From: Couchioplanes caeruleus
GTDB lineage: Bacteria; Actinomycetota; Actinomycetes; Mycobacteriales; Micromonosporaceae
Direction: 5' to 3'
Length of the DNA stretch: 64,000 nt
NCBI RefSeq assembly: GCF_003751945.1
Contig: NZ_RJKL01000001.1
Coordinates: 868,001-932,000 of the forward strand
Under the pieces are notes generated by a model, which was given only the letters and a program-made list of their open reading frames with translations, was not told the origin of the DNA and made no database searches. This document shows positions 1-28,251 of this stretch, in pieces. How positions within the stretch are numbered: the stretch's first letter is position 1; every line of letters begins with the position of its first letter. Both the position numbers and the translations under genes were made by a program.

Positions 1-75
1 GACGGCGATCTCGACGCAGTTGTCTGCACTGCCGCTGCGGGTGGACTTGCGCCAGTTGGTGAAGCGGTGGGGCAT
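1..75 (-). CDS. DUF397 protein, N-terminal part (runs off the window)
   Basis: The 25 visible codons begin MPHRFTNWRKSTRSGS and continue ADNCVEIAV. This is the characteristic start of DUF397 proteins (W-x-KS-x-x-S, then a conserved Asn-Cys-Val-Glu). The start codon overlaps the stop of the XRE-DUF5753 gene by one base (TGATG), so the two genes are translationally coupled. DUF397 proteins are small partners of XRE-DUF5753 regulators in actinomycetes and are regarded as regulator or toxin-antitoxin-like pairs. The rest of the gene lies outside the window. Confidence 0.85.
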   Translation of the reverse strand, partial: MPHRFTNWRKSTRSGSADNCVEIAV

Positions 76-956
76 CAGATGGCTCCTTGGTGTTCGGGTA
101 GCTCCTCGGCCACGGCGGCGAGGAAGTCGAGGGTCTGCTCCGGCGTCAGGGCCGCCGCCCGGAGGCGGTCGTACAGAGTCAGGTAATGGCTTACCTCGAC
201 GGCCTCGGTCAGGACAAGGTCCGAGGTGATGGTGTCGACGGAAACCACGATCGGGTCGGCGGAATCTGGGTAGCGGTAGATGGAAAACGCCGAGCGTGGC
301 ACTACATGGCCGGCGATCGACGCGGCGATCGGTAGCACCCGAATGGTGACCCGGTCGTGTGTGCGCCCGAGGTCGGCCAGATGTCGAAGCTGCCCTCTAA
401 CAACGTGCACGGGCGCGGCAAACCTTCGGATCGCCAGCTCGTCAATAACGACCTCGTAGGTGGGGCCGCCGGGCCGTTCCAGGAAGCGTTGCCGCGTGAG
501 GCGCGCCTCTAGGGCGCGGGCGGGGTCAACTCCTTGCGTGTGGGCGGAGGGGTCGGCGTGGACCCGAGACTGGCTGAATGCCGGGGTTTGCAGCAGCCCC
601 GGCAGCAAGGTCATCTGGTACTCGTAGATCCGGTGGGCGCCGGCCTCCAGACTCGCCGAGAGCGCCTGCCGAGGACCCATCTGTTCGGCGTGACGTTCCC
701 ACCAGCCGCGCTCCTGGGCTTCGCGAGCGATCGTCATGATCTGCGCCCAACGCTTCTCGCCGACGTTGAACACCGCGAGGATCCGCATGATCAGGTCAGG
801 GTCGGGCCGTACGTGGCCGTTCTCGATCCGACTGATGGTCTGCCGCTTCACCCCGACCGCACTGGCAAGACGGTCAGCAGAGAAGCCGTACTCGTCGCGT
901 AGTCGCAGGATCTCCATCGCGAGCCGACGCCGTCGCACATATGGGCTGACCATCAT
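75..956 (-). CDS. XRE-family helix-turn-helix regulator with DUF5753
   Basis: An XRE/Cro-type helix-turn-helix occupies about residues 10-65 (RLASAVGVKRQTISRIENG, then a long connector). It is followed by DUF5753, recognisable from the EAGAHRIYEYQ and LLPGLLQTPAFS segments. I chose the ATG at 956 (the second at 953 is also possible) because GGAGG sits five bases upstream and family members begin near SPYVRRRR; the frame extends upstream without a site. It is the first gene of a pair with the DUF397 gene. It is divergent from the nucleotide-modification operon, so it is a plausible regulator of that operon, although this pair is common in actinomycetes without such a link. The family is known to control development and antibiotic production. 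The target here is inferred from position only. Confidence 0.88.
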   Translation of the reverse strand: MMVSPYVRRRRLAMEILRLRDEYGFSADRLASAVGVKRQTISRIENGHVRPDPDLIMRILAVFNVGEKRWAQIMTIAREAQERGWWERHAEQMGPRQALSASLEAGAHRIYEYQMTLLPGLLQTPAFSQSRVHADPSAHTQGVDPARALEARLTRQRFLERPGGPTYEVVIDELAIRRFAAPVHVVRGQLRHLADLGRTHDRVTIRVLPIAASIAGHVVPRSAFSIYRYPDSADPIVVSVDTITSDLVLTEAVEVSHYLTLYDRLRAAALTPEQTLDFLAAVAEELPEHQGAI

Positions 957-1046
957 CAAGTCCTCCAGCCACACCGGCCATGTCAGCTCACTGACCGTCT
1001 CCGTGGACTGTCAGCGCGCGAAGAGCGTAACCCCGGAATCGTCCAT

Positions 1047-1285: not shown

Positions 1286-2185
1286 ATGCAGGCACAGCAC
1301 CCATTGGCGGCGCAGGCTACGCCTGGACCTGCGCAGCCCCACGTTCCGCGCGGTGATGCCGGCGTGCCGTACCAGGATCCCCGGCCCGCCGCTGCTGTCA
1401 CATGGCCGGCGGCGGGCCGGGCGCCAGCACCACGCACGCCCCGGACCACCGTCCCAATTCCGGCCCGGCACGCGGCCCCTGAACCGGACGGACACCCGGT
1501 AACGCAGATCCCCGGGGGACCGGTCCGCCCGAACCCGTCGGTGCCGCCTCGGACTCGGTGGCCGCGGCTGGCTGATGACCTGTTTCGGCTGGCGCACCAT
1601 GACACGACGGGCCGTCCGCTGTTGCACTCGACGGTGGCGGGTCTCGGGCTGGCCGCCGCGCTGCTGGCGGAGTTGGCCTTCACCGACACGATCGTGATCG
1701 AGCACGACCAGGTGCACGTCATCAGCCGCACGCCGCCGAGCGACGCGCTCGCGCACACGGTTCTGGATCAGCTCGCCGGCGAGACGATCGCGCACACCGT
1801 GCGGACCTGGCTGGCGTTCCTGTCGCAGACCTCGCACGAGCAAGTGGCATCGCGGATGCTGCGGTCGGGGCACGTCCGCGCCGAGACCAGCAGACGACTG
1901 CTGACCAAGAGCACGACCTACGTCCCCACCGACGCCAACGTGGCGGCGTGGCCGTGGGCGCGGCTGTCCACCCGGCTGCGCAACGCCCAGCCGCTGGACG
2001 CCTTCGACACCGTCCTCGCCGGGCTAACGCTCGCCGCCGACCTGCACCGACACGTCCTCGACGGCGTCCCTGGGCACGTCATCACGAGCCTTCGCCAGCT
2101 CATCGACACCACGCCGCCGTCCCTGCGGCTGCTGCTGCATCACACCGAGGCCGCCATCGGCGACGCCGTCCTCACCGGCCACTGA
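1286..2185 (+). CDS. GPP34 (GOLPH3/Vps74-like) family phosphoprotein
   Basis: The protein is 299 residues long. The first 90 or so are Pro/Ala-rich and look disordered. The rest is a helical GPP34 domain (LADDLFRLAHHDTTGRP, then a hydrophobic helix GLGLAAALLAELA, then paired helices around residues 120-290). In eukaryotes this fold binds phosphatidylinositol-4-phosphate and recruits glycosyltransferases to membranes. Actinomycetes have many paralogues of unknown function. The ATG at 1286 is preceded by GGGGAGG at good distance; an earlier GTG at 1169 falls in the structured leader and is less likely. It is the first gene of an operon that also holds a glycosyltransferase, so a membrane-recruitment role by analogy is possible but unproven. 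Confidence 0.8.
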   Translation: MQAQHPLAAQATPGPAQPHVPRGDAGVPYQDPRPAAAVTWPAAGRAPAPRTPRTTVPIPARHAAPEPDGHPVTQIPGGPVRPNPSVPPRTRWPRLADDLFRLAHHDTTGRPLLHSTVAGLGLAAALLAELAFTDTIVIEHDQVHVISRTPPSDALAHTVLDQLAGETIAHTVRTWLAFLSQTSHEQVASRMLRSGHVRAETSRRLLTKSTTYVPTDANVAAWPWARLSTRLRNAQPLDAFDTVLAGLTLAADLHRHVLDGVPGHVITSLRQLIDTTPPSLRLLLHHTEAAIGDAVLTGH

Positions 2186-2214
2186 CCCCCTTTCGCATAC
2201 GAGGAGCGCTCACC

Positions 2215-3744
2215 ATGTCCGTCCCCAGACCCCGGACGCCTGCCAGCAATGTCTCGCTGGCGTTGGCGCGTTCCCGTCTCGGCGTGTGGCCGGTGGTGTT
2301 CATCGTGATGGCCGCCGCCGCTCCGCTGACGGTGGTGGCCGGCGGCGCCACCACCGGCTACGCCGTCACCGGCGTGACCGGTATCCCAATCGCCTACCTC
2401 GCGGTCGCGGTAGCCCTCGGACTGTTCTCCGTCGGCTACGTCGCCATGTCCCGCCGCGTGGTCAACGCCGGGGCCTTCTACACCTACGTGTCACGCGGCC
2501 TGGGCAAGGTATCCGGCGTGGGGGCCTCGTTCGTCGCGGTCGCGGCCTACAACACCATGCAGATCGGCCTCTACGGAGGGTTCGGCGCCGTCCTCGCCGG
2601 TCTGTTGGAGGACTGGCTCGGCTGGTCGGTGCCGTGGTCGGTGTGCGCGTTCGCCGGCTGGGCCGTGGTGGCGGTCCTCGGGGTACGGCGCATCGACCTC
2701 AACGGCCGCGTGCTGGCCGTGATCCTGCTGGTCGAGATCGCGGTCGCGGTGGTGTTCGCCGTGGTGCAGCTCGCCCACCCGGCCGACGGGCGGGTCACCT
2801 TCGACACCCTCGCGCCGAGCAACCTCCTCGGCGCCGGGATCGGCGCCGCGCTGGTGACGGCCGTTGCGGGGTTCGTCGGGTTCGAGGGCACCGCGGTCTT
2901 CTCCGAGGAGTCCAAGGACCCGCAGCGCACCGTCGCCAAGGCCACCTACCGCGCCCTGGCGATCATCGGCCTGCTCTACGCCTTCTGCGCGTGGACGATG
3001 TCGGTCGCGACCGGCCCGGACCGCATCGTCGAGGCCGCGAAGGCCGACGGCACCGAACTGATCTTCAACCTGGTCGCGCCGCACGTCGGCGGGTTCGTGG
3101 TCGGCGTCGGGCACCTGCTGTTCGTGACGAGCCTGTTCGCGGCGCTGCTGTCGTTCCACAACACGGTGGCCCGGTACTTGTTCGCCCTCGGTCGCGAGCG
3201 GGTGTTGCCGCCGGTCCTGGGACGGACCAGCACCCGGACCCGCGCGCCGAAGGTCGGCTCGATCGTGCAGTCCGGGCTGGCCGCGATGGTCCTGGCCGTC
3301 TACGCGGCGATGGGGTGGGATCCGATCGTTCACCTGTTCTTCTGGCTCACCGTCGTGGGCGGTCTCGGCGTGTTGATCCTGATGGCCGGTACCTCGGTCG
3401 CGGTCATCGCGTTCTTCGCCCGCCGCTCCAACCGCGAGGACATCAGCGCGTGGCGGTGCCTGATCGCCCCCGCCCTCGCGGCTGCCGCGCTGCTGTGGAT
3501 CCTGTGGGCCACCATCGATCAGTTCCACATCCTGCTCGGTGTCGAGGCCAACAACCCGCTGCGCTGGATCTTCCCGGGTGCCTTCGGGGTCGCCGCCGTC
3601 CTCGGGGTGCTGTGGGCGCTGGTGTTGCGGGCCGTCAGGCCAGCGGTGTACGCCGGGATCGGCAGGGGCGCGAACAGCGTCACCACCGAGTTGGCCGCCC
3701 CGCTCGGGCAGCCGAATCCCGCGCCGGCCGCGAGCGGGTGGTGA
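2215..3744 (+). CDS. APC-superfamily permease
   Basis: The 509-residue polytopic membrane protein has about twelve hydrophobic segments. The first helix shows the APC signature region (FIVMAAAAPLTVVAGG), and helix 6 carries the conserved GFVGFEGTAVFSEE segment (Phe-Glu-Gly, then Glu). Both are typical of amino-acid/polyamine/organocation exchangers. GAGGAG lies ten bases before the ATG. The stop overlaps the next start (GTGA), which ties it to the downstream enzymes. In this setting it may import a precursor such as an amino acid or base, or move the product. The substrate cannot be read from the sequence. The nearby GTG and ATG codons upstream lie in the GPP34 gene and lack ribosome binding sites. 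Confidence 0.9.
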   Translation: MSVPRPRTPASNVSLALARSRLGVWPVVFIVMAAAAPLTVVAGGATTGYAVTGVTGIPIAYLAVAVALGLFSVGYVAMSRRVVNAGAFYTYVSRGLGKVSGVGASFVAVAAYNTMQIGLYGGFGAVLAGLLEDWLGWSVPWSVCAFAGWAVVAVLGVRRIDLNGRVLAVILLVEIAVAVVFAVVQLAHPADGRVTFDTLAPSNLLGAGIGAALVTAVAGFVGFEGTAVFSEESKDPQRTVAKATYRALAIIGLLYAFCAWTMSVATGPDRIVEAAKADGTELIFNLVAPHVGGFVVGVGHLLFVTSLFAALLSFHNTVARYLFALGRERVLPPVLGRTSTRTRAPKVGSIVQSGLAAMVLAVYAAMGWDPIVHLFFWLTVVGGLGVLILMAGTSVAVIAFFARRSNREDISAWRCLIAPALAAAALLWILWATIDQFHILLGVEANNPLRWIFPGAFGVAAVLGVLWALVLRAVRPAVYAGIGRGANSVTTELAAPLGQPNPAPAASGW

Positions 3745-4364
3745 CGACCGTGGGCGCGCTCACTCCGATCATCCGCCGTGCCACCCCGGCCGAGATCGAC
3801 ACTGTGGCCGCCGTGCTCGCCGAGGCGTTCCTGCACGGCGACCTCGCTCCCTGGCTGATCCTCAACGTCGACACCCGCGAGAAGGTGTACTGGCCGTACT
3901 TCAGGCTCCTCGCCGAGGTGGCCCAGGCGGCCGGCTGGATCGACGTCACCGACGACCTCGCCGCCGTCGCCCTCTGGTACCCGGTTGGTGACCGGTTCGA
4001 CGTCGAGTTCCCGAACTACGACACCCGCCTCGCGCAGGCGTGCGGCCAGCACCTGCACCGGTTCGTCGCCCTCGACCAGATCATGCACGAACACCACCCC
4101 ACCGGCACGCCGCACCACTACCTCGCCCACCTCGGCGTGCACCCGGACCGGCAACGCCAGGGGCTCGGCAGCGCCCTGCTGAAGCACCACCACGGCCAGC
4201 TCGACGCCATCGGAATGCCCGCCTACCTGGAGGCCACCAGCAGCCGCCACGGCGTCTTCTACCGCCGGCACGGCTACCTGCCCCGCCCGGGATACCGGCT
4301 GCCGAAGGGGCCGGAGCTGTACCCGATGTGGCGGCGCCCGCGCTCGGCCTGGGAGGCGCGATGA
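3741..4364 (+). CDS. GNAT-family N-acetyltransferase
   Basis: The 207-residue protein has the GNAT acetyl-CoA binding motif A (LAHLGVHPDRQRQGLGSALL, with the RxxGxG loop) around residues 130-155 and the terminal FYRRHGY segment of motif B. It begins at a GTG that overlaps the permease stop (GTGA), and its stop overlaps the next ATG (ATGA). GNAT enzymes transfer an acetyl group to amines. Its place between the permease and the glycosyltransferase suggests it acylates an intermediate or product of the same pathway, or detoxifies it. The substrate is unknown. Confidence 0.9.
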   Translation: MTTVGALTPIIRRATPAEIDTVAAVLAEAFLHGDLAPWLILNVDTREKVYWPYFRLLAEVAQAAGWIDVTDDLAAVALWYPVGDRFDVEFPNYDTRLAQACGQHLHRFVALDQIMHEHHPTGTPHHYLAHLGVHPDRQRQGLGSALLKHHHGQLDAIGMPAYLEATSSRHGVFYRRHGYLPRPGYRLPKGPELYPMWRRPRSAWEAR

Positions 4365-5398
4365 GGGTCGGGTATAGCTGCTGGGGGTTTCTCGGCCCCG
4401 GGGTGGTGGACACGCCGGACGGGTCGCGGGCCTACCGCCGCCCGCTGATCGACGGGCTCACCGCCGCCGGTCACGAGGTGGTGCTCGTCCAGCGCAACCG
4501 GGACCTGGCCGAGGCGGGCCTGGACCTGCGCGAGGAGTACACGTACGGCGGGCTGCCCGACTTCGACGTGCTGATGCTGGAGTGGCGGTGGCCGCTGCCC
4601 GGTCGCAACACCACTCCGTGTGGCACGCCGAGGCACACCTGCGACCTGCACCGGCAGACCGAGTTGTTGGAGCACTACACCCGCGCGTGCGGCATCCCGA
4701 CGGTGATCTGGGACCTCGACCGGCAGCTCCCCGCCGACGACCCGCTCCGCGTGCTGCCGAACGTGGCGGTGTGCGAGTTCGCCCTGCACCCGACGCCGGG
4801 CGCCACGACGGTGCTTTGCCCGGTCCCGGACGCCGTGTTGGACGCCGCCGACCCGGCCGCGCTGGCGGGTATGGCCCGGCCGGTGTCGCTGGTGTACGTC
4901 GGCAACCAGTACGACCGCGACGACGCCTTCGACCACTACTTAGCTCCGGCAGCGCGGCAGGTCGGGCACCGGGTGGCCGGCAAGTGGCCGCGCACCGAGC
5001 GGTGGCCGCACGTCACCTTCACCGGCCGCTGCCCGTTCGCCGAGGTCGAGGCCATTCACCGGCAGGCCCTGGCCACGGTGCTGCTGCTGCCCGAGCGCTA
5101 CAACGCGGTCGGGCACATGACGTCGCGGCTGTTCGAGGCCCTGCTCGCCGGCTGCCTGCCCCTGCTGCCCGCCGAGTTCGTCGGCGGGGAGGTGTTCGTG
5201 CCGCCGGTGCTGCGCGTCAGCGACGGGGCGGACGTGGTGCAGCGGGTCGAGCACCTGCACCGCATGGCCGGCAGCACCGAGCACGCGGACCTGATCGCGG
5301 CCTGTTTGGGCTTCCTCGAGCCGATGCGGCTGTCCCGGCAGCTCGCCGTCCTCGATGACGTCTTCACCACCCTGACCAGCCTGAGCCCCCGGAGGTAG
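4361..5398 (+). CDS. GT-B-like glycosyltransferase
   Basis: The 345-residue protein starts MRVGYSCWGFLG and has two Rossmann-like halves. The C-terminal half holds the donor-binding pattern (LVYVGNQYDRDD, VTFTGRCPF, then HMTSRLFEALLAGCLPLLPAEFVGG), resembling CgeB/GT4-type glycosyltransferases and phage enzymes that decorate nucleotides. Glu in SRLFEALLAG is the usual nucleotide-sugar ribose contact. The ATG overlaps the previous stop (ATGA). The next gene begins two bases after the stop. Because its immediate neighbour is a dCMP/CMP-hydroxymethylase-like enzyme, it could glycosylate a hydroxymethylated pyrimidine nucleotide or nucleoside; that is inference. Donor and acceptor are not determinable here. 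Confidence 0.78.
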   Translation: MRVGYSCWGFLGPGVVDTPDGSRAYRRPLIDGLTAAGHEVVLVQRNRDLAEAGLDLREEYTYGGLPDFDVLMLEWRWPLPGRNTTPCGTPRHTCDLHRQTELLEHYTRACGIPTVIWDLDRQLPADDPLRVLPNVAVCEFALHPTPGATTVLCPVPDAVLDAADPAALAGMARPVSLVYVGNQYDRDDAFDHYLAPAARQVGHRVAGKWPRTERWPHVTFTGRCPFAEVEAIHRQALATVLLLPERYNAVGHMTSRLFEALLAGCLPLLPAEFVGGEVFVPPVLRVSDGADVVQRVEHLHRMAGSTEHADLIAACLGFLEPMRLSRQLAVLDDVFTTLTSLSPRR

Positions 5399-5400
5399 CC

Positions 5401-6426
5401 ATGGTCTACGGCCCCACCTACGACAGCTTCCAGCAGGCGTACCTCGCGGTGCTGCGCACCGTCGCCCGCCGCTACCAGTACGAGACCGCCAGCCGTGGCA
5501 AGAAGGCCCGGGAGATCATCAACAGCAGCTTCACGATCACCGACCCGATCGACCGCACCCCGTACCTCGCCGCGCGGCGGACCAACATCGTGTTCAACCA
5601 CGCCGAGGCGCTGTGGTACCTGACCGGCCGCGACGACGTCGACATGATCGGGTACTACGCGCCGCGGCTGCGCGACCTCGCCGTCGAGGGCCGGCTCACC
5701 GGCACCGCCTACGGGCCGAGGCTGTTCAACCCCACCGGTGAGGACGGGCGCAGCCAGTTCGACCGGGTGATGTCGCTGCTGCGGGAGGACCCGGACACGA
5801 AGCGGGCCGCGATGGTGATCATGCGGCCGGACGAGCTGACCGACCCGACCCATCCCGACGTGGCGTGCACCCTCGGCCTGCAGTTCCTGCTCCGCGACGG
5901 GCGACTGCACGCCGCCGCCTACATGCGCGGCAACGATGCGGTGATCGGGCTGCTGTGCGACACGTTCTCGTTCACCTTCCTCCAGGAGTACACGGCCCGC
6001 CGCCTCGGCGTGCCGGTGGGCACCTACGCCCACCACGTCGGCTCGATGCACATCAACCTGCTCGACCTGGACCGCGTCGACGCGATCCTCACCGAGGCCG
6101 CCGGGCCGAACGCCCGGCCGAGGTTCCCGGTTCCGTCGATGCCGGTGACCAGCCATGACGACCTGGCCTTGGTCATGGCGTGGGAGGAGGGCCTGCGCAC
6201 CGACACCCGGCGTCTGGACCCGGTGCGGCTGGACCGTGTTCCGCTGCCGCTGTACTGGCAGCAGGTGCTCGCCCTGTTCGAGGTGTACCGGCAGATCGTC
6301 CACGACCCCGACGGTCCCGTCAGCCCGGACGCCATGGCCGCGCTGCACCCCGGCCACCGGTGGCTTGTCGCGGCGCGCTGGCCGGACCGGATGCCCGCCA
6401 CCATCCGGGTGGGGTGGGCGTCGTGA
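5401..6426 (+). CDS. thymidylate-synthase-fold enzyme, predicted (d)CMP hydroxymethylase or methylase
   Basis: This 341-residue protein aligns without gaps to the E. coli thymidylate synthase (ThyA) active-site half. Nucleophile Cys146 corresponds to Cys156, Arg166 to Arg176, Asp169 to Asp179 and His207 to His217. Glu58 and the tyrosine of the AYG motif are also present. The decisive residue Asn177, which reads the uracil face of dUMP, is Asp187 (LLCDTFSF instead of the usual PFNI). Asp at this place is the hallmark of dCMP hydroxymethylase of T-even phages and of engineered dCMP-preferring thymidylate synthase. His147, after the catalytic Cys, is Thr. I therefore predict a cytidylate substrate and a 5-hydroxymethyl or 5-methyl product. 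A housekeeping thymidylate synthase is unlikely. It sits between the glycosyltransferase and the NDK homologue. Confidence 0.85.
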   Translation: MVYGPTYDSFQQAYLAVLRTVARRYQYETASRGKKAREIINSSFTITDPIDRTPYLAARRTNIVFNHAEALWYLTGRDDVDMIGYYAPRLRDLAVEGRLTGTAYGPRLFNPTGEDGRSQFDRVMSLLREDPDTKRAAMVIMRPDELTDPTHPDVACTLGLQFLLRDGRLHAAAYMRGNDAVIGLLCDTFSFTFLQEYTARRLGVPVGTYAHHVGSMHINLLDLDRVDAILTEAAGPNARPRFPVPSMPVTSHDDLALVMAWEEGLRTDTRRLDPVRLDRVPLPLYWQQVLALFEVYRQIVHDPDGPVSPDAMAALHPGHRWLVAARWPDRMPATIRVGWAS

Positions 6427-6941
6427 CGCCGCCCCGGGTGGACTGGTCGGATTGGACCGTCATCCTGCTCAAGCCCGACTGCTTGGCCCGTGGCCTGCGC
6501 GAACCGGTCCTGGTTTGGCTCCAGCGCGAGGTCCAGGTGGTCGACGTCCGCACGATCTGGCCGACCGAGGCGCAGATTTTCGTGCACTACTCCGACATGC
6601 TGCCGCTGTCCACGCAGATCGGCCGCGACGTGCCCGCCGAGCTGCGGCGCATCTTCGTCGGGCAACCCACTGGACTCGCCCTCGGCTATGGTCCCAACGC
6701 CGCACCCCGGCTGCGGGAACGCCTCGGCCCCACCGACCCGGCCACCGCACCGGCCGACACCATCCGAGGCCGGTTCGGCATCGACAGCCTCCGGACCGCG
6801 ATGGCCGAAGGTCGCCTCGTAGACAACCTGATTCACAGCTCCGACACCGTCGAGGTCGTTCCCCGCGACTTCGGCATCTGGTACGGCCCCACCGCCGCGC
6901 ACCTACTTACCGCCCCCACCCCTTCCGGAGGCACCCGGTGA
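6423..6941 (+). CDS. nucleoside-diphosphate-kinase homologue
   Basis: The 172-residue protein has the NDK N-terminal strand (TVILLKPDCLARG, matching the invariant KPD) and the active-site segment NLIHSSD with the phosphorylated histidine at residue 138. These match the family NxxH-G/S-SD motif. It is about 30 residues longer than housekeeping NDK (near 140), with an insertion around residues 60-110, so it is a divergent paralogue. GTG at 6423 overlaps the previous stop (GTGA), and its stop overlaps the radical SAM start. The likely role is phosphorylation of the modified nucleotide made by the upstream enzyme, or phosphotransfer within the pathway. Specificity is not predictable. Confidence 0.85.
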   Translation: MTPPRVDWSDWTVILLKPDCLARGLREPVLVWLQREVQVVDVRTIWPTEAQIFVHYSDMLPLSTQIGRDVPAELRRIFVGQPTGLALGYGPNAAPRLRERLGPTDPATAPADTIRGRFGIDSLRTAMAEGRLVDNLIHSSDTVEVVPRDFGIWYGPTAAHLLTAPTPSGGTR

Positions 6942-8185
6942 CCAGCACCGCCATACCCACCTTCACCCCCGGCCCCCGGCTACTGCCGGTCATGCCCGCC
7001 GACCAGCAAGCCGAGCTGGACCCGTACATGGCGCAGATCGTCGGCTACCGCAAGTCCGGGCTCAGCCTCAACCACATCATCGGCTGCCCGCTGGAGTGCG
7101 GCTACTGCGTGCGGCACTTCTGGGGCAACTTCGAGGTCAAGGTCCCGCACTTGCTTATGCCCACCGAGGAGGCGATCGACAGGCTCGTCGGGCACGAGGC
7201 GTTCCGGCCCGGCGTCACCCCGATCCAACTGTTCAACAAAGCCACCGACCCGTTCCTGCCCGGCGTCAAACCGCACCTGTTCCAGGTGCTGCAGGCCCTG
7301 GACGCGAGCGGGTTCACCAACCACGTCCTGCTGATCACCCGGTTCAAGGTCACAGAGGCGGACATGGCCGCGCTGGAGAGGCTGCAGCACCTGCGGGTCA
7401 CGCTGCTGTTCACCTACTCCGGGATCACCGACCCGCGCGTGGAGCCGATCTCCAAGAGCGAGATCACCGTGACGTCGATCCGCACCGCCGCCGCCCACAA
7501 GCGCCGCACCGGGGTGGTGCTGTACTGGCGGCCGATCGTGCCCGGCTGGAACGACGCCCCCGACACCATGGCCCGGGTGCTCGACGTCGGCCGCGACGCC
7601 GACGCGATCGTGTTCACCGGCTACTACCACAAGCCCGAGAACGCCGACTACCTCCGCGGCCTCGGCGTGCCCGTGCCTTTCGGGGAGGACTACCACCGGC
7701 GCAAGACCATGCCCGCCGACCTCGACGCCGCCGTGGTCGCCGCCTGGCGGACCTCCGGCATCAGCACCCCGCTGTTCCGCAAGACGAGCTGCGGCGTCGC
7801 CTACGCCCACGAGGTGCCCGACTACAACGGGCACTGGGGCGTGCGGGAGCTGTGCGACATCTGCCCCGCCGCCCAGCAGCAACGCTGCGCCGACGACCAC
7901 ACCCCACCGACGCCGGCCAGCATGGACCGCATCCTCGGCCAGCTCGGCTACCAGACGCAGTACGTCATCGAGGACGGCCACGTGTGGACCCACGGCCTCG
8001 GCGAGCAGCGCCGCTACGCCATCCAACACGGCCTGCGCTATCAGATCTGGGAACTCGACCAGCCCCACCACCTGCACGCCCACGGCCGATCCCTCAACGG
8101 CCACCGCGCCGACGCCGCACAGGTCGAGGTGTTCACGGCGGTGCGCCAGCAGTTCGAGCAGGAGGCGCGGTATGAAGACGACTGA
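6938..8185 (+). CDS. radical SAM enzyme, spore-photoproduct-lyase/COG1533-like, with extra C-terminal cysteines
   Basis: The 415-residue protein carries the canonical CX3CX2C cluster motif (Cys50, Cys54, Cys57, in IGCPLECGYCVRH), followed by a partial TIM barrel. The DPFLPG and VLLITRF segments recall the DNA-photolyase-like COG1533 radical SAM group. A second cysteine set (Cys285, Cys306, Cys309, Cys317) near LCDICPAAQQQRC could hold an auxiliary iron-sulfur cluster. The C-terminal 95 residues form a further domain of unknown type. The GTG start at 6938 has GGAG upstream and overlaps the NDK stop. In this operon a radical carbon-carbon or carbon-sulfur step on a pyrimidine nucleotide or on an attached group is plausible. 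The reaction cannot be named. Confidence 0.85.
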   Translation: MTSTAIPTFTPGPRLLPVMPADQQAELDPYMAQIVGYRKSGLSLNHIIGCPLECGYCVRHFWGNFEVKVPHLLMPTEEAIDRLVGHEAFRPGVTPIQLFNKATDPFLPGVKPHLFQVLQALDASGFTNHVLLITRFKVTEADMAALERLQHLRVTLLFTYSGITDPRVEPISKSEITVTSIRTAAAHKRRTGVVLYWRPIVPGWNDAPDTMARVLDVGRDADAIVFTGYYHKPENADYLRGLGVPVPFGEDYHRRKTMPADLDAAVVAAWRTSGISTPLFRKTSCGVAYAHEVPDYNGHWGVRELCDICPAAQQQRCADDHTPPTPASMDRILGQLGYQTQYVIEDGHVWTHGLGEQRRYAIQHGLRYQIWELDQPHHLHAHGRSLNGHRADAAQVEVFTAVRQQFEQEARYEDD

Positions 8186-8849
8186 CCCCGACACCCGGCA
8201 GGACGGACCCGTGACCAGCACCGACGCCCCCTGGCACCAGGCCGACCTCGTCGCCCTGGATTTGGAAGGCAGCGGCGCCCAGGACCGCGACAACGAGGCC
8301 ATCCTGGAGATCGCACTCGTCCCGCTCACCGCCGGAAAGCCTGCCGTCGCCGAGTCGTATGCCACCCTGGTCAACCCCGGCCGCTCGATCCCGGCCCGGC
8401 CGTGGATTTCACCCGGGTTGACTAACGACGTACTCAGCCGCGCCCGGCCGCTCACCGCGATCGAGCCTGAGCTGGCCGACCGCATCAACGGCCGCTGGCT
8501 CGTCGGGCACAACATCGGCGTCGACTGGCGCCTGCTGCACCGACGCTGCCCCGACATCGCACCGGCCGGGCTCATCGACACGCTGCGCCTGGCCCGCGCC
8601 TGCCACCTCGACGCCGGCGGCCACAGCCTCACCACGCTGCTCGACCACCTCGAACTGACCGCCACCGTGACCGGGGTAGTGCCGCACGGGCAGCCCCACC
8701 GAGCCCTGTGGGACACCGTCGGCGCGGCCATCCTCCTCGGCAGCCTCGTCACCCGACGGTGGCCCACCGGTGTCGGTCTTGCCGGACTGCGCACGGTGGC
8801 CGCCCTGCCGGACGTAGCACCCACGCAGGCGCCGGACACGTTGTTCTGA
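8172..8849 (+). CDS. DEDDh 3'-5' exonuclease (DnaQ/RNase T-like)
   Basis: The 225-residue protein has the exonuclease I motif LDLEG (metal-binding Asp and Glu), the exo II region LVGHNIGVDWRLL, and the exo III motif HRALWDTVG with His and Asp. These are the four acidic ligands and the histidine of the DEDDh class. It starts 14 bases inside the end of the radical SAM gene and closes the operon. A trimming nuclease at the end of a modified-nucleotide operon could remove modified nucleotides from DNA or RNA or degrade competing nucleic acid. It could also act on a small oligonucleotide. No partner domain is fused. Confidence 0.85.
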   Translation: MKTTDPDTRQDGPVTSTDAPWHQADLVALDLEGSGAQDRDNEAILEIALVPLTAGKPAVAESYATLVNPGRSIPARPWISPGLTNDVLSRARPLTAIEPELADRINGRWLVGHNIGVDWRLLHRRCPDIAPAGLIDTLRLARACHLDAGGHSLTTLLDHLELTATVTGVVPHGQPHRALWDTVGAAILLGSLVTRRWPTGVGLAGLRTVAALPDVAPTQAPDTLF

Positions 8850-8854
8850 CCCGA

Positions 8855-8936
8855 GCTGAGTACGAGGCTCAGCCGCAAGGAACCAACCCTGACTCGGCGA
8901 GTCGAGTCGCTTGCCGCGGTGTTGATCCGAACACCG
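8855..8936. terminator. two short hairpins between convergent genes
   Basis: GCTGAG (8855-8860) pairs with CTCAGC (8868-8873). CGGTGTT (8917-8923) pairs with AACACCG (8930-8936) around a six-base loop. They lie just after the exonuclease stop and before the end of the convergent Mrr-like gene. There is no T-run, as is common in actinomycetes, so termination is inferred from position. Confidence 0.4.
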
Positions 8937-9000
8937 GGAAGGCCGGACCATCCGATCGGGCGGCCCTGATGTCCGCCGAGCGAGAGTGGCGACCTGGGTG

Positions 9001-10209
9001 CTACCTGAGCCCGTACTCGGCCACCAACCACGGACGCTCCGAGAGCATGGTTGTCAACCGCGGCTCGGGCCAAAGATCAATGAACGGCACCTTGCCGGCC
9101 TCGTTGTGCCTCTCGACCCACGCAACAGCATCCGGGGTGAAATGGCCGCTGGTCGCCACGACGAAACCTCGAACTACCGGGGGCTCCCAGAGGGTGATGC
9201 GGGTGAGCGCACTGGTGATCTCCTCCGGCGGTACGGACTTCGACAGCCAATGCTTGGCCTGGACGATCACGCGCTCAGTACGCACCCCGCCCGCGCCATC
9301 GTGGAGGACACGTTCAGCCGAGATGTCCCGGCCCCGGTCCGCAGCGTTGGCCTTCATGAGCAACTGGACGTTCTGGTAGCCAGGTAGGTTCCGTAGAAGA
9401 TCATGAAGCAGGCGCTCGAAGACGTCGGGGTCGAGTTTGTTCCACGACAGTTTGGTGGAGGCCCCGCCGACGGGTCGTTGGGAAGCAGCCCTGCCGAGGT
9501 CGATGTCGGGCACGGGCAGGGGGTCGTCCTCGGAGAACATCGCTGCCTCGATGTCCGGCTTGAGGGTAGGCCAGTCGAGTTCGTAGATGTCGTGCCAGTC
9601 GTGTCCTTGACCGAAGTGCATGTGTCGGTGAAGGTCGCTCCACCGTCCGCGGCGCGAGGCGGTGGCGCCCATCAGCCGTTCAATCTCGGCGATGGCGGCA
9701 TCGACCTCGGACGCCCGGGCATCCTCCAAGCGCTCCAACGAGTCACGCGGGACATCCGCCAACAATTGCGGCAGAAGGGTATCGACCTTCGTGACCAGTT
9801 CTTGCATCCGGTCGCGGACGGCGCGCCGGCGGGCCCGGTTCAGGCGATGCCGATACTCCGCGAGCGCCTTGCCAGGCGCGTCTGAAGCGTCCATGAGGCC
9901 GAATGGCGGCTCGCCAAACTCGGCGTACTCGAGGTACGCCATTCCGATCGCGTGCATGTCTGGCAGTCGCTCGGTAATCGTCCAGTCATCGATCTTGGGC
10001 AAGCCGCGAAGCAGGTCGCCCCACGTGCGGGTGAGATCCTCGTACTCCGGCGTGGATCCCCCTGACGGGCCAATGGGGAGCATCGGACCAGCCCTCTCCC
10101 ACACGGCTTGAAGCCGTTCGAGGTTGGCGGCGGCGCGGTCCATGACGGCCAGCAGTTCGTCAAGGCTCAGCATCCCGTTGCGGACGTGCCCGCCGACCTG
10201 ATCAGCCAC
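9001..10209 (-). CDS. Mrr-like restriction endonuclease with N-terminal helical region
   Basis: The 402-residue protein has a long, mostly helical N-terminal region without a clear family match. The C-terminal Mrr_cat-type PD-(D/E)XK nuclease domain covers about residues 255-390. The domain begins LDPDVFERLLHDLLRNL and has the catalytic Asp295 (in RGRDIS) and Gln317-x-Lys319 (in VIVQAKHWL), the QxK variant typical of Mrr. Mrr enzymes cut modified DNA (type IV restriction). The GTG at 10209 is the longest start; ATG at residue 13 is an alternative because no strong ribosome binding site is seen. It faces the nucleotide-modification operon and opens the defence island, so it may attack modified phage DNA. 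Confidence 0.8.
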   Translation of the reverse strand: MADQVGGHVRNGMLSLDELLAVMDRAAANLERLQAVWERAGPMLPIGPSGGSTPEYEDLTRTWGDLLRGLPKIDDWTITERLPDMHAIGMAYLEYAEFGEPPFGLMDASDAPGKALAEYRHRLNRARRRAVRDRMQELVTKVDTLLPQLLADVPRDSLERLEDARASEVDAAIAEIERLMGATASRRGRWSDLHRHMHFGQGHDWHDIYELDWPTLKPDIEAAMFSEDDPLPVPDIDLGRAASQRPVGGASTKLSWNKLDPDVFERLLHDLLRNLPGYQNVQLLMKANAADRGRDISAERVLHDGAGGVRTERVIVQAKHWLSKSVPPEEITSALTRITLWEPPVVRGFVVATSGHFTPDAVAWVERHNEAGKVPFIDLWPEPRLTTMLSERPWLVAEYGLR

Positions 10210-10350
10210 GCTGCATAGCGTACTGGGTACGCTCGGCTAGATCCGATCCTGTTGATATGCCATCTCGTGCCGATCGATCGGCGCCGGTGTCAGCCGGTCG
10301 CCCTCCACCCTCCGCGTTAGACACTCCGGCTGGCGAGAGGTAAGACAGCG

Positions 10351-11511
10351 ATGGGGTCTGCCAGTCCGGCGGGCCTGCTCAATGCGACCGGCAGGGAGGT
10401 CACCATCGCGGCAGCTGGATACATCACCGGCGTCACTCGCCGGCGGCTCATCGACGGGTTGGCCGAGATGGGGGCGCATTGGAGCGGCGCACTTGAAGAG
10501 GTCGACTTTCTGGGCAGACTCTACGACGTCGATGCACTGCCGAGCCGCGATCCGCGGTTCAGTACCGCCGGCCAGGACATCGTCCAGCATCGTTGGCTGA
10601 ACAACGACTGGGATGACGACTGGATCTTCCATGACTCTCGGTTCGGCCTGGCGGACGGCGACGAGGCGCTCCTGGCGCTCCTCGTTGAGATGTTGCACCC
10701 GGAGGTCCGCACGGATGTGACCGAAGTAGAGCGGATACGGAGCTTCCTGAACCGTGTGCTGATCAGCGACGGCTACGAGCTTGTCCAGGTCGATGACATC
10801 AGCGGCGCACCGATCTTCGCCGCGTGCCGTGTCGGCGCAGGCGTCCGCGGCACCATGAAGAACTTGATCTTTGCCTCCATCGGTCCCAAGCCGGAAATTG
10901 TGCTCGCCGACGCGGTGAACAACGATCTACGCATCGTTCGGCACGGGCAGAACTGCCTGATCTACGACCGGCCGCTGGCGGCGCATGGCCTGACCTGGGC
11001 CGAACTGACTGCCTGGTGGGCGGACCAGGAAGGCATCGCCGCGGCATCGGAGCGCGATGTAGCCCGTAGCCTCTACCAGCGGCTGGACCGGTCCCTCGGC
11101 GGGAACGACGCCGAACGGCGAATCTTGCGGACCTATGCCGAGCGGTACGTACGGCTCGGCCCCGACATCCCCGCCCTGATCCCGCAGGTCTACCTCCACT
11201 ACGACCCCTACATACGCACGCATCACCAGCCCGGCGCGGCGTCACTGGCAAGGCAGCGAATGGACTTCCTTCTACTGCTGCCGCACCGGGTCCGTGTCGT
11301 GATCGAGTGCGACGGCAAGCAGCACTACGCAGACGACGACGGCCGGGCCAGTCCCCGCCGCTATGCCGAGATGATGGCCGAAGACCGCGAGCTGCGGCTC
11401 AACGGTTACGAGGTCTACCGCTTCGGAGGTGCTGACCTCGTCGATGGCCCAGAGACGGTACGCCGCCTCGACGCCTTCTTCGACCGGCTCGCCACTCGCC
11501 ACGCTGTTTGA
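10351..11511 (+). CDS. AbiJ_NTD3-type defence protein with C-terminal nuclease domain
   Basis: The 386-residue protein has the AbiJ_NTD3 pattern in its first 165 residues. It runs RRRLIDGLAEMGAHWSG, VDFLGRLYDVDALPS and QHRWLNNDWDDDWIF, then an EMLHPEVR segment. The C-terminal third looks like a Vsr/DUF559-like nuclease: Asp305 in MDFLLLLP, then Glu319-Cys-Asp321-Gly-Lys323 and a downstream RELRLNGYEVYRF segment. Abortive-infection proteins with this N-terminal domain are found in phage-defence islands. The gene stands alone between the Mrr-like gene and DISARM. The start codon ATG at 10351 follows AGAGG. Biological target unknown. Confidence 0.8.
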   Translation: MGSASPAGLLNATGREVTIAAAGYITGVTRRRLIDGLAEMGAHWSGALEEVDFLGRLYDVDALPSRDPRFSTAGQDIVQHRWLNNDWDDDWIFHDSRFGLADGDEALLALLVEMLHPEVRTDVTEVERIRSFLNRVLISDGYELVQVDDISGAPIFAACRVGAGVRGTMKNLIFASIGPKPEIVLADAVNNDLRIVRHGQNCLIYDRPLAAHGLTWAELTAWWADQEGIAAASERDVARSLYQRLDRSLGGNDAERRILRTYAERYVRLGPDIPALIPQVYLHYDPYIRTHHQPGAASLARQRMDFLLLLPHRVRVVIECDGKQHYADDDGRASPRRYAEMMAEDRELRLNGYEVYRFGGADLVDGPETVRRLDAFFDRLATRHAV

Positions 11512-11985: not shown

Positions 11986-14900
11986 GTGACGGCGGCGGTC
12001 GAGGCGCCGGAAGTCGGCGAGCTGGTCAGAGTGCGTGGCCAGCAGTGGGTGGTCGCCCGGTGCAGCGTGAGCACGCAACCCCGCGACGAGCTGGCGGCAA
12101 GTCAGCCGCCTGGTCGCACTCTGGTAACGCTGACCAGCGTCAGCGACGACGACCTGGGTGAAGAGCTGACCCTGGCCTGGGAGGTCGAGCCCGGCCGAAA
12201 GGTGCTGCCGGAGACCCAACTTCCCCAGGTCACCGAAACTGGGTGGGACGATCCGGAAACGCTCGGTGCCTTCCTAGACGCCGTGCGGTGGGGCACCGTC
12301 GCGAGCGCTGACGACCAAACCTTGCAAGCGCCGTTCCGGGCTGGCATCACGATCGAGGAGTACCAGCTCGAACCGGTCGCGAAGGCACTCGCGATGCCCC
12401 GGGTGAACCTGCTGATTGCCGACGACGTGGGCCTCGGGAAGACCATCGAGGCGGGCCTTGTCATCCAGGAGATGCTGCTGCGGCACCGCGCCCGGAGGGT
12501 GATCGTGGTGTGCCCTGCGCCGCTGACGGGCAAGTGGCGCGATGAGATGACCGACCGGTTCGGCCTGGATTTCACCGTCCTTGACGCCGCAGCGCTCAAG
12601 CAGTTGCGGCGTACCCACGGGTTGGAAGCCAACCCGTTCCAGGTGTTTCCTCGCACCATCATCAGCCTGCCGTGGCTACGCACCCCAAGGGTGCAGCGCC
12701 TGCTCGACGAGGTACTCACCCCGCAGGCGCGACACCCCGGCTTTTTCGACATCCTCCTGGTCGACGAGGCCCACCACTGCGCCCCGCCTGCGCCGGGCGG
12801 CGGGAAACGCTACCTTGTCGACACCCGCCAGACCCAAGCGGTGCGCCGCCTCGGTGAGCACTCGGCGCATCGACTGTTCCTCAGCGCCACACCGCACAAC
12901 GGCTACAGCGAGTCGTGGCAGGCGCTGTTGGAGATGCTTGATCCCCAGCGGTTCCTCCGCGGTGCGGAGCCTGACCCCGCGCTGGTACAGCAGGTGATGG
13001 TGCGCCGGCTCAAGGACTCCATCCTCGACGCCGACGGCCAACCAAAGTTCCCCGGCCGCGAACCCCGCGCGATAGAGGTGCACTACAGCGCCGATGAGAC
13101 CGCCGGGCATGTCCTGCTCGATCGATACACCCGGGCACGGCAACGTGTCACCGGCACCGCCGCCGTCAGAGCCGGCGACCTCATCACCCTCTTGCTGAAG
13201 AAGCGATTGTTCTCCTCCCCGGCAGCCTTCGCCGCCACCCTCGCCGCTCACCGCCAAACCATCGGCAACGCGCACCGCACCCAGGACGAAGACATCCCAG
13301 AGTGGCTGTCCGAGGCGCTGGCCTGGGACGATGACGACACCGACGACCAGGCACAAGAGGCCGACCTTGAGCTGCTCGGCCGCGCCGCGACCCTGGTCGA
13401 TGCCCCTGACGACAACGAAGCTCACCTACTCGACGAGCTGACCGCATGGGCCGAGCGGCACGGGGAGCCGGCCGACAGCAAGGCCAACCGACTGATCGAC
13501 GAACTCACCAGCATCTGCCGGCGCGGCAAGACGTGGACCGACGAGCGGGTCATCGTCTTCACCGAGTACCGCGACACCCAGAACTGGCTAGCAGGCCTAC
13601 TCGAAGCGCGAGGCCTGGGCGGCGCACGGCTCGGTCTGCTCTACGGCGGGATGGACGACGCCAAACGCGAACACCTCAAACAAGCCTTCCAGGCCGCCCC
13701 TGACCGCGACCCGGTCCGCATCCTGCTCGCCACCGACACGGCCAGCGAAGGTATCGACCTGCAGGACCACTGCCATCGCGTCATCCACTACGACATCCCG
13801 TTCAACCCGAACCGGCTCGAACAGCGCATCGGTCGAGTCGACCGCTACGGCCAACACCACAAGGTCGACGTCGCGCACTTCGTCGGCGCCGGCTGGGAAC
13901 ACGCCGAAGCCGGCTCCTACGAAGCCGACCTGGAATTCCTCAGCCGGGTAGCCCGCAAGGTAGCAACCGAGCGCCGTGACCTGGGCAGCGTCAACCCCGT
14001 CCTCGCCCACGCCGTAGAAGCGCGGATGCTCGGCCGCCCAGTCTTGCTCGACCCGCTCCAAGTCACCCCCAAGGTCTCCACCAGCGTCCTCAAAGCCGAG
14101 CAGCACCTACGCGCCCAGGCAGAGCGGCTGCGCGGCCAACTCGACCGATCCATAGCGGCGCTGCACGTAGCACCCGCGAACATCCGCCGAGTCGTCGACA
14201 CCGCGCTCCACCTCGCTGGGCAGCCGCCACTGGTCGACGAAGGAGACGGCACCGTGGCGCCCCCACAACTCAAAGCGGGCTGGGAGCGCACGGTGGCCGG
14301 CTCGGTCGACCCTCTCAGCGGCACCCCGCGACCACTCACCTTCGACGCCCGCGAGCTCGCCAACCGTAAGGATGCGGTCCTCGCCCACCTCGGGCATCCG
14401 TTGGTAGCGCAGAGCACCCGGCTGCTGCGCAGCGCACTCTGGGGAGGCCGCACCGACCTACACCGCGTCGCCGCGGTGCTCTTCACGCCCCCACCCGGCC
14501 TCAACCTGCGCGGCCCCTTGGTCACGGTATTCGCCAGACTCGTTGTAGTGGGCAGCGACGGCAGCCGCCTACACGAAGAGGTCATCCTCGCCGCCCGCGA
14601 ACTGCCCGAAACCGGTCGCGGCAAGCGAGTGGACCTCGAACAACGCGGCTACACCGACCTGCGAGCCGCCGTCGAGGCCGCCCTCGAACCCGGCGCTTGC
14701 CGTCCCGCACCGCCGCCATTGCGAGCCGCATTCGCGCAGCGCTGGCCAGAGCTGACCGACCGGCTGGTAGCCGACATTCAGGCCCGAGCGACCCGGCAAC
14801 GGGAGTCACTGCGTCACAAACTTGACGAGCGACTGAACACAGACCTGCACCGCACGAACGTCGTCTTCGACCAGCTCCGCGCCACCCTGGACAGCGCTCT

Positions 14901-15123
14901 GGCAGACCCGGGCAACGTTCAGCTCACCCTCGATGGACTCGACCAGGACGAGACCCGCCAGTTCGAGCGGGACCGCCGCGCCTGGCAAGAACGCCGCGAC
15001 CGGCTCGACGAGAACCGCGCCACCGAACTCACCGCACTGCACAAGCGCTACGCCGACGTCCACGGCCTCGTGTTCCCGTTCGCGGTGGCGTTCTGCGTCC
15101 CGGACTCCGGAGCGATTCAGTGA
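11986..15123 (+). CDS. drmD: DISARM SNF2-like helicase DrmD
   Basis: The 1,045-residue protein has a SNF2/SF2 ATPase core. Walker A is DDVGLGKT with Lys152, and the DEAH box is at residues 260-263 (LLVDEAHHC). SATPHNG forms motif III, and the C-terminal RecA lobe is VIVFTEYRDTQNWL ... ATDTASEGIDLQ ... QRIGRVDRYGQ. This is the layout of DrmD, the helicase that defines class 1 DISARM. GTG at 11986 is preceded by GGAAAGG, and its stop overlaps the methyltransferase start (GTGA). The C-terminal 350 residues are helical and charged and may contact partner subunits. Known role: DISARM restricts incoming phage DNA; DrmD is expected to translocate on DNA. Confidence 0.92.
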   Translation: MTAAVEAPEVGELVRVRGQQWVVARCSVSTQPRDELAASQPPGRTLVTLTSVSDDDLGEELTLAWEVEPGRKVLPETQLPQVTETGWDDPETLGAFLDAVRWGTVASADDQTLQAPFRAGITIEEYQLEPVAKALAMPRVNLLIADDVGLGKTIEAGLVIQEMLLRHRARRVIVVCPAPLTGKWRDEMTDRFGLDFTVLDAAALKQLRRTHGLEANPFQVFPRTIISLPWLRTPRVQRLLDEVLTPQARHPGFFDILLVDEAHHCAPPAPGGGKRYLVDTRQTQAVRRLGEHSAHRLFLSATPHNGYSESWQALLEMLDPQRFLRGAEPDPALVQQVMVRRLKDSILDADGQPKFPGREPRAIEVHYSADETAGHVLLDRYTRARQRVTGTAAVRAGDLITLLLKKRLFSSPAAFAATLAAHRQTIGNAHRTQDEDIPEWLSEALAWDDDDTDDQAQEADLELLGRAATLVDAPDDNEAHLLDELTAWAERHGEPADSKANRLIDELTSICRRGKTWTDERVIVFTEYRDTQNWLAGLLEARGLGGARLGLLYGGMDDAKREHLKQAFQAAPDRDPVRILLATDTASEGIDLQDHCHRVIHYDIPFNPNRLEQRIGRVDRYGQHHKVDVAHFVGAGWEHAEAGSYEADLEFLSRVARKVATERRDLGSVNPVLAHAVEARMLGRPVLLDPLQVTPKVSTSVLKAEQHLRAQAERLRGQLDRSIAALHVAPANIRRVVDTALHLAGQPPLVDEGDGTVAPPQLKAGWERTVAGSVDPLSGTPRPLTFDARELANRKDAVLAHLGHPLVAQSTRLLRSALWGGRTDLHRVAAVLFTPPPGLNLRGPLVTVFARLVVVGSDGSRLHEEVILAARELPETGRGKRVDLEQRGYTDLRAAVEAALEPGACRPAPPPLRAAFAQRWPELTDRLVADIQARATRQRESLRHKLDERLNTDLHRTNVVFDQLRATLDSALADPGNVQLTLDGLDQDETRQFERDRRAWQERRDRLDENRATELTALHKRYADVHGLVFPFAVAFCVPDSGAIQ

Positions 15124-19214: not shown

Positions 19215-19304
19215 ACGGCTACTGCGCGGTCACCCCGCTCTCGCATCTCGGCGGCGGCCGGCTTCGCCCTGAGGGAGTGGGCAAGCGAAAGGGGAGGCGG
19301 ACTG

Positions 19305-24730: not shown

Positions 24731-25466
24731 CGCGGACATCCAACTCACGATCTCGCTCGTCAGCCGCCTCCCGCCCGCCGACGTGGCGAAACTCGCCCAC
24801 GCAACCTCAGCAGGACTACAGGACCTGCACCGGCTGACCGCGAACTCAGCCAGCGACAAGCTACGGTCGGCCTGCCAACAACTCGTCGCAGCGCTCAACC
24901 GTGGCGCCGACCCACGCGCGCTCAGCGGCGCACTTCTCGGAGCCGACCACGCCGCCCGCCACACCCGAGGTGCACTCGCGCTCGACGTTGTCTGGACCGG
25001 CCCCACCTCGAACGTCACAGCCAGTCGTCTGACATGGGCGGTGATCTCCGCCATCCTCGGCGAGGCCCAGCGCTCCGTCCTTCTGATCGGCTATGCCGTA
25101 CAGAGCGAGCCGAGCGTAGCGAAGGCGCTGGAAGCTGCGGTCAGCCGCGGCGCGGAGGTCACTCTCCTTCTCGAGCGGTCCATCGACAACCCCAACTACG
25201 CGGGGACCGGCTCCCCATTCCCGTCACTGCCAGCCAGGCGCCTCGCCTGGCCCGCGGAGCACCGACCGACCGGAGGCGCTGCGCTGCACGCCAAAGTACT
25301 GGTCGTTGACCGTTCTGTCGCACTCGTCGGCAGCGCCAACGTCACCGGCTGGGCACTCGAACGCAATCTTGAGTGCGGCATCCTTGTGCGGGGCGGTCCC
25401 CAACCCGCAGTGATCCACGAACACATCGACGCGCTCGTCTCCAACGGCTCTCTAGTGCCGATTTGA
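24723..25466 (+). CDS. drmC: DISARM phospholipase-D-like protein DrmC
   Basis: The 247-residue protein has a helical first 100 residues and then a phospholipase D fold with one HKD motif: His189, Lys191 and Asp196 (LHAKVLVVDRSVALVGSANVTGW), with the GSxN follow-up. Single-HKD proteins usually dimerise to build the active site, as in Nuc-type nucleases. DrmC is the putative nuclease of DISARM but is not always essential. The ATG at 24723 overlaps drmB by eight bases; ATG 24705 is an alternative with a poorly placed site. Confidence 0.9.
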   Translation: MDDADIQLTISLVSRLPPADVAKLAHATSAGLQDLHRLTANSASDKLRSACQQLVAALNRGADPRALSGALLGADHAARHTRGALALDVVWTGPTSNVTASRLTWAVISAILGEAQRSVLLIGYAVQSEPSVAKALEAAVSRGAEVTLLLERSIDNPNYAGTGSPFPSLPARRLAWPAEHRPTGGAALHAKVLVVDRSVALVGSANVTGWALERNLECGILVRGGPQPAVIHEHIDALVSNGSLVPI

Positions 25467-27594: not shown

Positions 27595-27677
27595 CCACCG
27601 ACCCTGGACCGATCAGCACCGATCGACGACATCGAGCGGCCGCGTCCGCGCCAGCACACCATCGTTACCCTGCAGCC

Positions 27678-28187: not shown

Positions 28188-28251
28188 CCCAGCCAGCCGT
28201 CACCACCATCACGACAGCGCCGACATGGCGGTCTTCTCAAACACGCTCTGA

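Follow-up and report, generated by a model that had tools for sequence, protein, structure and literature searches.

What do the eight closely packed genes at positions 1286-8849 of a 64,000-nucleotide stretch of Couchioplanes caeruleus DNA make, and do they belong together? This stretch (contig NZ_RJKL01000001.1), hereafter the window, comes from a genome of 8.43 Mb, and an earlier note had read its eight genes as one operon for a modified, glycosylated pyrimidine nucleotide. All eight open reading frames (ORFs) were confirmed, each on the + strand, and they constitute two units: a core encoding a glycosyltransferase (GT), a thymidylate synthase (TS) homologue, a nucleoside diphosphate kinase (NDK), a radical S-adenosylmethionine (SAM) enzyme and an exonuclease, and a separable companion of GPP34, permease and acetyltransferase genes (GPP34-APC-GNAT). 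Our preferred explanation, held tentatively and at a little short of even confidence, is a horizontally mobile operon whose product, a nucleotide analogue, acts within the cell, with phage as its most likely target.

A conserved core and a separable companion module

Searching genome contigs with the TS protein recovered 26 loci, 22 of which carry NDK, radical SAM and exonuclease genes alongside. All actinobacterial loci except L029 (22 of 23) have the NDK gene and the radical SAM-exonuclease pair flanking TS; this core was present in none of the three alphaproteobacterial TS loci from metagenome-assembled genomes (L032-L034). A GT gene lies upstream of TS in 15 of the 22 core loci. The radical SAM protein had matches in 22 of 300 genomes of the family; of the 24 loci, the window's own included, three with matches below 300 residues were left out (L053, L055 and L056), and among the remaining 21 (at least 300 residues) TS and NDK accompany it in 18 and the exonuclease in 19. 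Loci without TS were L052, which has the exonuclease and one internal stop, and L054 and L058, broken pieces from one genome. Across the phylum, the radical SAM family was found at E<=1e-40 in one of 396 sampled genomes, the window's own. Single fusions of TS with NDK (P0084, n = 1) and of NDK with the radical SAM protein (P0232, n = 1) occur among database proteins. Relative to Salinispora (L010), the ratio of nonsynonymous to synonymous substitution rates (dN/dS) was 0.14-0.31 in seven of the eight genes and 0.61 in the GNAT gene, with 0.14-0.24 across the five core genes. Because the core order recurs in other families and dN/dS is low, the gene set is more than a chance arrangement.

Co-conservation thus holds for TS, NDK, the radical SAM enzyme and the exonuclease, and less often for the GT, but not for all eight genes together. 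In the window, GPP34-APC-GNAT immediately precedes the core, as it does in only 3 of the 22 other core loci that have a full-length radical SAM gene (L009, L010 and L012). Elsewhere it is a few kilobases from the core or apart from it; in G019/L015, G034/L124 and G021/L125 it lies past the opposite end, and in L121 and, less strongly, in L123 it adjoins another nucleoside-like cluster. The reading of the eight genes as one unit was rejected on this variable position. The GNAT family is multi-copy, and at E<=1e-20 every one of the 60 genus genomes has a match to it; the GNAT gene of the window is under the weakest constraint of the eight. The permease may import or export, and the GNAT protein may serve in tailoring or self-resistance.

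The nucleoside-like cluster that the module adjoins is itself conserved (L029:3961-15010, L121, L122 and L123). It encodes an epimerase, a TS homologue of the deoxycytidine monophosphate (dCMP) type, a carbamoyltransferase and a member of the same GT family, together with a kinase-like protein, a methyltransferase, phosphotransferases and a phosphatase.

Most neighbours among the eight genes overlap or stand 2-30 bases apart (Table 1). Four-base overlaps join APC to GNAT, GNAT to GT (ATGA, 4361-4364), TS to NDK (GTGA, 6423-6426) and NDK to radical SAM (GTGA, 6938-6941); the GT stop and TS start are separated by 2 bases, with GGAGG ahead of the TS start, and the radical SAM and exonuclease genes overlap at 8172-8185, with AGGAGG ahead.

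Table 1. Genes of the cluster and the divergent regulator, in window coordinates
Feature	Position	Strand	Profile match or remark
GPP34-domain protein	1286..2185	+	PF05719 6e-36; first gene of separable companion module
APC-family permease	2215..3744	+	PF00324 5e-15; companion module
GNAT acetyltransferase	3741..4364	+	PF13508 2e-9; companion module
GT-B glycosyltransferase (GT), predicted	4361..5398	+	PF13524 5.5e-4, under family cut-off
MilA-type cytidine monophosphate (CMP) 5-hydroxymethylase (TS homologue), predicted	5401..6426	+	PF00303 8e-17
Nucleoside diphosphate kinase (NDK)	6423..6941	+	PF00334 1e-14
Radical SAM enzyme, uncharacterised family	6938..8185	+	CxxxCxxC motif
DEDDh 3'-5' exonuclease	8172..8849	+	PF00929 6e-9
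XRE-type regulator with DUF5753 domain	75..974	-	PF19054 1e-38, HTH_3 2e-12

Predicted chemistry of the core

MilA (PDB 5jnh) was by far the best PDB sequence match of the TS homologue (284.6 bits), against 52 bits for the best thymidylate synthase other than MilA and 42 bits for T4 dCMP hydroxymethylase. Lys133 and Ala176 of MilA are reported to set its preference for CMP over dCMP, and Asp186 to mark cytosine substrates (PMC5175136). The window protein has Lys134, Cys156, Gly177 and Asp187 at the positions of MilA Lys133, Cys155, Ala176 and Asp186. Across 121 aligned rows (the window and 120 listed matches of 538), Cys is kept in 119, Lys in 119 and Asp in 121, whilst the residue at position 177 is Gly in 96 rows and Ala in the other 25, with Ser in none; the first TS of L029 is an exception in having Arg in place of the Lys. 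Given this Lys/Gly-or-Ala/Asp signature, the enzyme is likely to act on CMP, and closeness to MilA together with the ribonucleotide signature makes 5-hydroxymethyl-CMP, and not a DNA precursor, the expected product. The earlier description of the protein as cytidylate-type was borne out by the Asp at the base-specificity position, and cytidylate hydroxymethylation is likewise supported, with the correction that the enzyme resembles MilA (CMP) and not the T4 (dCMP) type.

The GT annotation also held, in that the top structural match of the GT model was T4 DNA beta-glucosyltransferase (BGT), at a narrow margin of only about 1.3 Z above other GT-B enzymes. BGT was the sole PDB match by sequence, weak and not significant (E 0.17). 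Each of 10 GT-bearing genus genomes pairs the GT with a cytosine-type TS homologue (7 MilA-type and 3 dCMP-type). Judging from the structural model, the probable acceptor of the GT is a cytidine nucleotide, modified at its 5-hydroxymethyl group.

Motif counts for the NDK and the exonuclease take in near-duplicate loci: the NDK motif NxxHxSD, with its catalytic His, is kept in 58 of 58 matched loci, and the exonuclease keeps motif 1 in 63 of 63 rows and motif 3 in 62 of 62, with Glu replacing Asp in motif 2 in 7 of 63. The exonuclease gene directly follows the radical SAM gene in 22 of 22, 7 of 7, 15 of 16 and 19 of 21 loci in four locus sets, and the enzyme may be a self-protection factor. The radical SAM protein of the window had no Pfam match at E<=1 and no NCBIfam match, and a 20-sequence profile of its family matched no PDB chain at E<=10. 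Its C50, C54 and C57 (CxxxCxxC) are invariant in 20 of 20 sequences, as are C285, C306, C309 and C317, in an alignment that spans actinobacteria, alphaproteobacteria and one Nostoc plasmid. Relatives of this gene are labelled 'radical SAM protein' in many plasmid records, or 'DNA repair photolyase' (JGI). In PADLOC-DB 2.0.0, GT, TS, NDK and radical SAM proteins match no system model, and the window exonuclease matches only generic DEDDh and candidate PDC-S48 models.

Sister cassettes and horizontal transfer

Among 72,556 plasmid records, 39 contain a member of the radical SAM family, and in 24 of these the match coverage is at least 80%; two peptide patterns located the family on 7 viral contigs as well. 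On alphaproteobacterial plasmids and phage-like contigs, the radical SAM protein, a DEDDh exonuclease and a small P-loop protein recur without a nearby TS. Across 16 plasmid loci, 15 have the exonuclease (Nostoc L066 does not), all 16 the P-loop protein (190-200 amino acids, AAA_28 type), 8 an aldo/keto reductase (the L080 match falls where no gene is annotated), 5 an HD protein, and 6, all Streptomyces, have TS and NDK. In L068, the HD protein is similar to 2o6i (E 1e-43) and to SAMHD1 (2e-20), and a MazG-like protein follows some copies (L079 by annotation, L030 by eye). PADLOC returned no match for the radical SAM, P-loop or aldo/keto reductase proteins of these sister cassettes, and a weak dGTPase match for the HD protein. 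Head, portal, terminase or tail proteins were identified with PHROGs on 4 of the 7 viral contigs (L059, L060, L061 and L063); the tests covered these four and L064, of which the single protein taken in had no PHROGs match.

A 57-row tree places the window with Salinispora L009 and L010 at 100/100 and apart from other Actinoplanes-group copies; on it, the association of TS with NDK requires at least two changes. TS identity is 90-91% to Salinispora versus 58-66% to same-genus matches. The cluster was likely acquired by horizontal transfer. Just left of the window (L126:15435-17626) stand a phosphotransferase-like gene and an XRE-type regulator, and the same two genes also precede the cluster in L009 and L010, which probably puts the start of the transferred unit some 2.6 kb beyond the window's left edge.

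A possible role in defence

Sister cassettes often lie beside CBASS, Gabija, Shedu, Qat or SIR2-HerA genes. PADLOC identified a CBASS cyclase and E1-E2 protein beside the cassette in Sinorhizobium meliloti (L074) and QatC in S. chiapasense (L081). Agrobacterium vitis L073 gave matches to GajB and a dGTPase, Labrenzia L072 to a type IIG-like methyltransferase, and viral contig L061 to SIR2 and HerA directly upstream of the cassette, whilst L068 and L081 carry Shedu and ABC-three-component genes by annotation. The L061 region (5060-10239) runs SIR2-HerA, then radical SAM-exonuclease-P-loop; genes for phage head and terminase proteins are present on the same contig. Altogether, an anti-phage gene lies near the cassette in 5 of 8 non-actinobacterial plasmid loci (L068, L072, L073, L074 and L081) versus 0 of 8 equal-length control stretches from the same plasmids, the controls being judged by gene name only and the loci partly by PADLOC (one-sided exact probability 0.013, or 0.038 without L072, computed by hand). 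L070, near-identical to L072, was left out of this count. Among the controls, genes not scored as anti-phage were a DEAD-box helicase in L084 and, in L089, a DEAD-box helicase, a caspase-family protein and toxin-antitoxin genes, the last also occurring in L083. In the window, PADLOC identified a DISARM system (DrmD, DrmMI, DrmA, DrmB and DrmC) at 11986-25466, starting 3.1 kb downstream of the cluster.

Several observations weigh against the preferred explanation, beginning with this unequal scoring of loci and controls. No anti-phage gene was found at the other three of the eight plasmid loci (L066, L069 and L075), Streptomyces and Nocardia plasmid loci lack a named anti-phage system (toxin-antitoxin genes occur in L077 and L078), and among Micromonosporaceae loci PADLOC scanning covered the window. 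DISARM does not adjoin the cluster in Salinispora ORF maps inspected by eye. TS, NDK and GT are absent around the alphaproteobacterial cassettes that have the strongest defence setting; conversely, the P-loop kinase-like gene of the plasmid cassettes lies beside the core in 0 of 22 genome-contig loci. The lead of BGT over other GT-B enzymes is slim, and finding the companion module next to a second sugar-nucleoside-like cluster argues for secretion of the product. On balance, we consider defence about an even prospect as the role of the cassette.

Under the preferred explanation, a nucleotide analogue made and used inside the cell, the MilA-type enzyme would very probably convert CMP to 5-hydroxymethyl-CMP, as its sequence indicates, and the GT would with fair probability place a sugar, probably glucose, on the 5-hydroxymethyl group. 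Host CMP kinase and the encoded NDK may then yield the triphosphate, a product suggested by the pairing of an NDK gene with that of a CMP hydroxymethylase. The key change on the nucleotide would fall to the radical SAM enzyme, the cassette's invariant centre, and the DEDDh exonuclease may strip the analogue from the 3' ends of the host's nucleic acids. A SAMHD1-like dNTPase or MazG-like protein may add to self-protection in sister cassettes; the constant exonuclease partner, together with these proteins in relatives, suggests protection from a nucleotide that poisons nucleic-acid synthesis. GPP34-APC-GNAT would be an optional add-on.

Alternative products

The closest competitor is a nucleoside natural product, in which the radical SAM enzyme turns glycosylated 5-hydroxymethyl-CMP into an antibiotic or signal for secretion, the GNAT protein acetylates, the permease exports and the exonuclease confers resistance. 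We rate this as a possible outcome, though one less probable than intracellular use. Its first enzyme is in common with mildiomycin, Streptomyces copies adjoin genes named 'natural product biosynthesis protein', and a GT, a TS-type enzyme and GPP34-APC-GNAT recur in the second cluster with its epimerase, carbamoyltransferase, methyltransferase and phosphotransferases; thmA-C is a precedent for a secreted nucleoside antibiotic. Yet the conserved core has no transporter, the NDK points to a triphosphate, and the cassette occurs in defence regions and phage-like contigs of other bacteria. The base-releasing MilB family (PF05014) is moreover absent from the window's whole genome (0 of 1) and present in 3 of 14 control genomes, and mildiomycin-like base release was rejected on its absence; of the comparison with mildiomycin drawn previously, only the first enzyme stands. 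Defence is ranked somewhat ahead of a secreted nucleoside because the defence setting of the sister cassettes tips the balance, whilst the companion module and second cluster pull the opposite way, and the two remain close.

Incorporation of a modified nucleotide into DNA or RNA in the T-even style, with further modification by the radical SAM enzyme, is improbable. The T-even-like trio of hydroxymethylase, kinase and BGT-like GT and the presence in phage-like contigs would fit it, but a ribonucleotide signature is found in nearly all of the 121 TS rows, the GT is missing from 7 of 22 loci, the core has no modification-dependent partner or polymerase, and the Rhizobium radical SAM protein matches none of 50,697 phage records. 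DNA hypermodification is disfavoured by that signature, and with it the earlier suggestion of a DNA precursor. Less probable still is a product that the divergent XRE regulators sense as a regulatory or alarm nucleotide and that is no polymerase toxin, for although XRE-type regulators stand beside many copies, their families vary by locus and the exonuclease is retained where they are absent.

If the preferred explanation is true, bacteria have a second way, independent of viperin, of making antiviral nucleotide analogues, and a proofreading exonuclease serves as its built-in antidote. The radical SAM family would thereby gain a testable role, and hydroxymethylated, sugar-bearing ribonucleotides a source. 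A natural-product role would equally reveal a compact, widespread, uncharacterised nucleoside pathway. A bolder extension, doubtful at present, is a class of immune system without sequence kinship to viperin, in which a radical SAM enzyme makes a polymerase-poisoning nucleotide, from hydroxymethylated, glucosylated CMP in actinobacteria, with the exonuclease as immunity factor and dNTPase or MazG-like proteins in sister cassettes, carried on plasmids, prophages and defence islands in at least three phyla.

Surroundings of the cluster

The divergent XRE/DUF5753 regulator is kept upstream in Salinispora (90-91% identity in L009 and L010) and L012 (63%), with a dN/dS of 0.12, and is the probable regulator of the cluster. 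In L014, L017 and L024, an XRE-type regulator (family F4) and a peptidase-like family (F5) lie upstream of the core; F5 recurs there in L013, L014, L017, L024 and L030. Promoters, terminators and Rfam RNAs were looked for, and none was found. Between the cluster and DISARM lie an Mrr-like gene (9001-10209, - strand) and a candidate defence gene (10351-11511). Transposase-like and recombinase-like ORFs, recognized by eye at 26761-30818 and 52619-53556, are in keeping with a genomic island, and a giant ORF of 3574 codons (38919-49643) has its 3' part within the stretch of lowest guanine-plus-cytosine content in the window (48-50 kb).

Comparison with known systems

No description of the gene set was found in the openly licensed literature, subscription papers being mostly outside the search, which agrees with the earlier note's view of an undescribed system. 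The hydroxymethylase, kinase and GT, with BGT as its top structural match, recall glucosylation of hydroxymethylcytosine in T4. T4 uses a dNMP kinase, whereas the window kinase is of the NDK family, the hydroxymethylase signature is CMP-type and not dCMP-type, and GT sequence similarity is not significant. MilA and BcmA, of mildiomycin and bacimethrin biosynthesis, provide the best PDB match of the TS homologue and share its Lys/Ala-or-Gly/Asp signature, but the window protein has Gly for Ala176, its partners are an NDK, a radical SAM enzyme and an exonuclease, and its genome is without a MilB-family hydrolase.

Viperins, which make ddhCTP, are included in both the PDB and PADLOC libraries. 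Unlike them, the window's radical SAM family returned no PDB chain by profile, and three of its proteins were without a PADLOC match. Likeness lies in radical SAM nucleotide chemistry, in antiviral settings and in the capacity of a DEDDh-type exonuclease to remove ddhCMP, the SARS-CoV-2 nsp14 exoribonuclease being reported to remove this viperin product from RNA (PMC9415739). The nearest analogue in the literature is the thmA-C cluster of Photorhabdus, in which 4'-thiothymidine is made by a radical SAM enzyme together with a nucleoside kinase and a triphosphatase, and thmC gives resistance (PMC12691670). Compared by gene content, it resembles the alphaproteobacterial plasmid set of radical SAM, P-loop kinase-like and SAMHD1-like dNTPase genes, whilst no TS, GT or exonuclease is described for it. 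Removal of ddhCMP by nsp14 and the thmA-C cluster both fit as precedents for reading the exonuclease and its associated proteins as self-protection.

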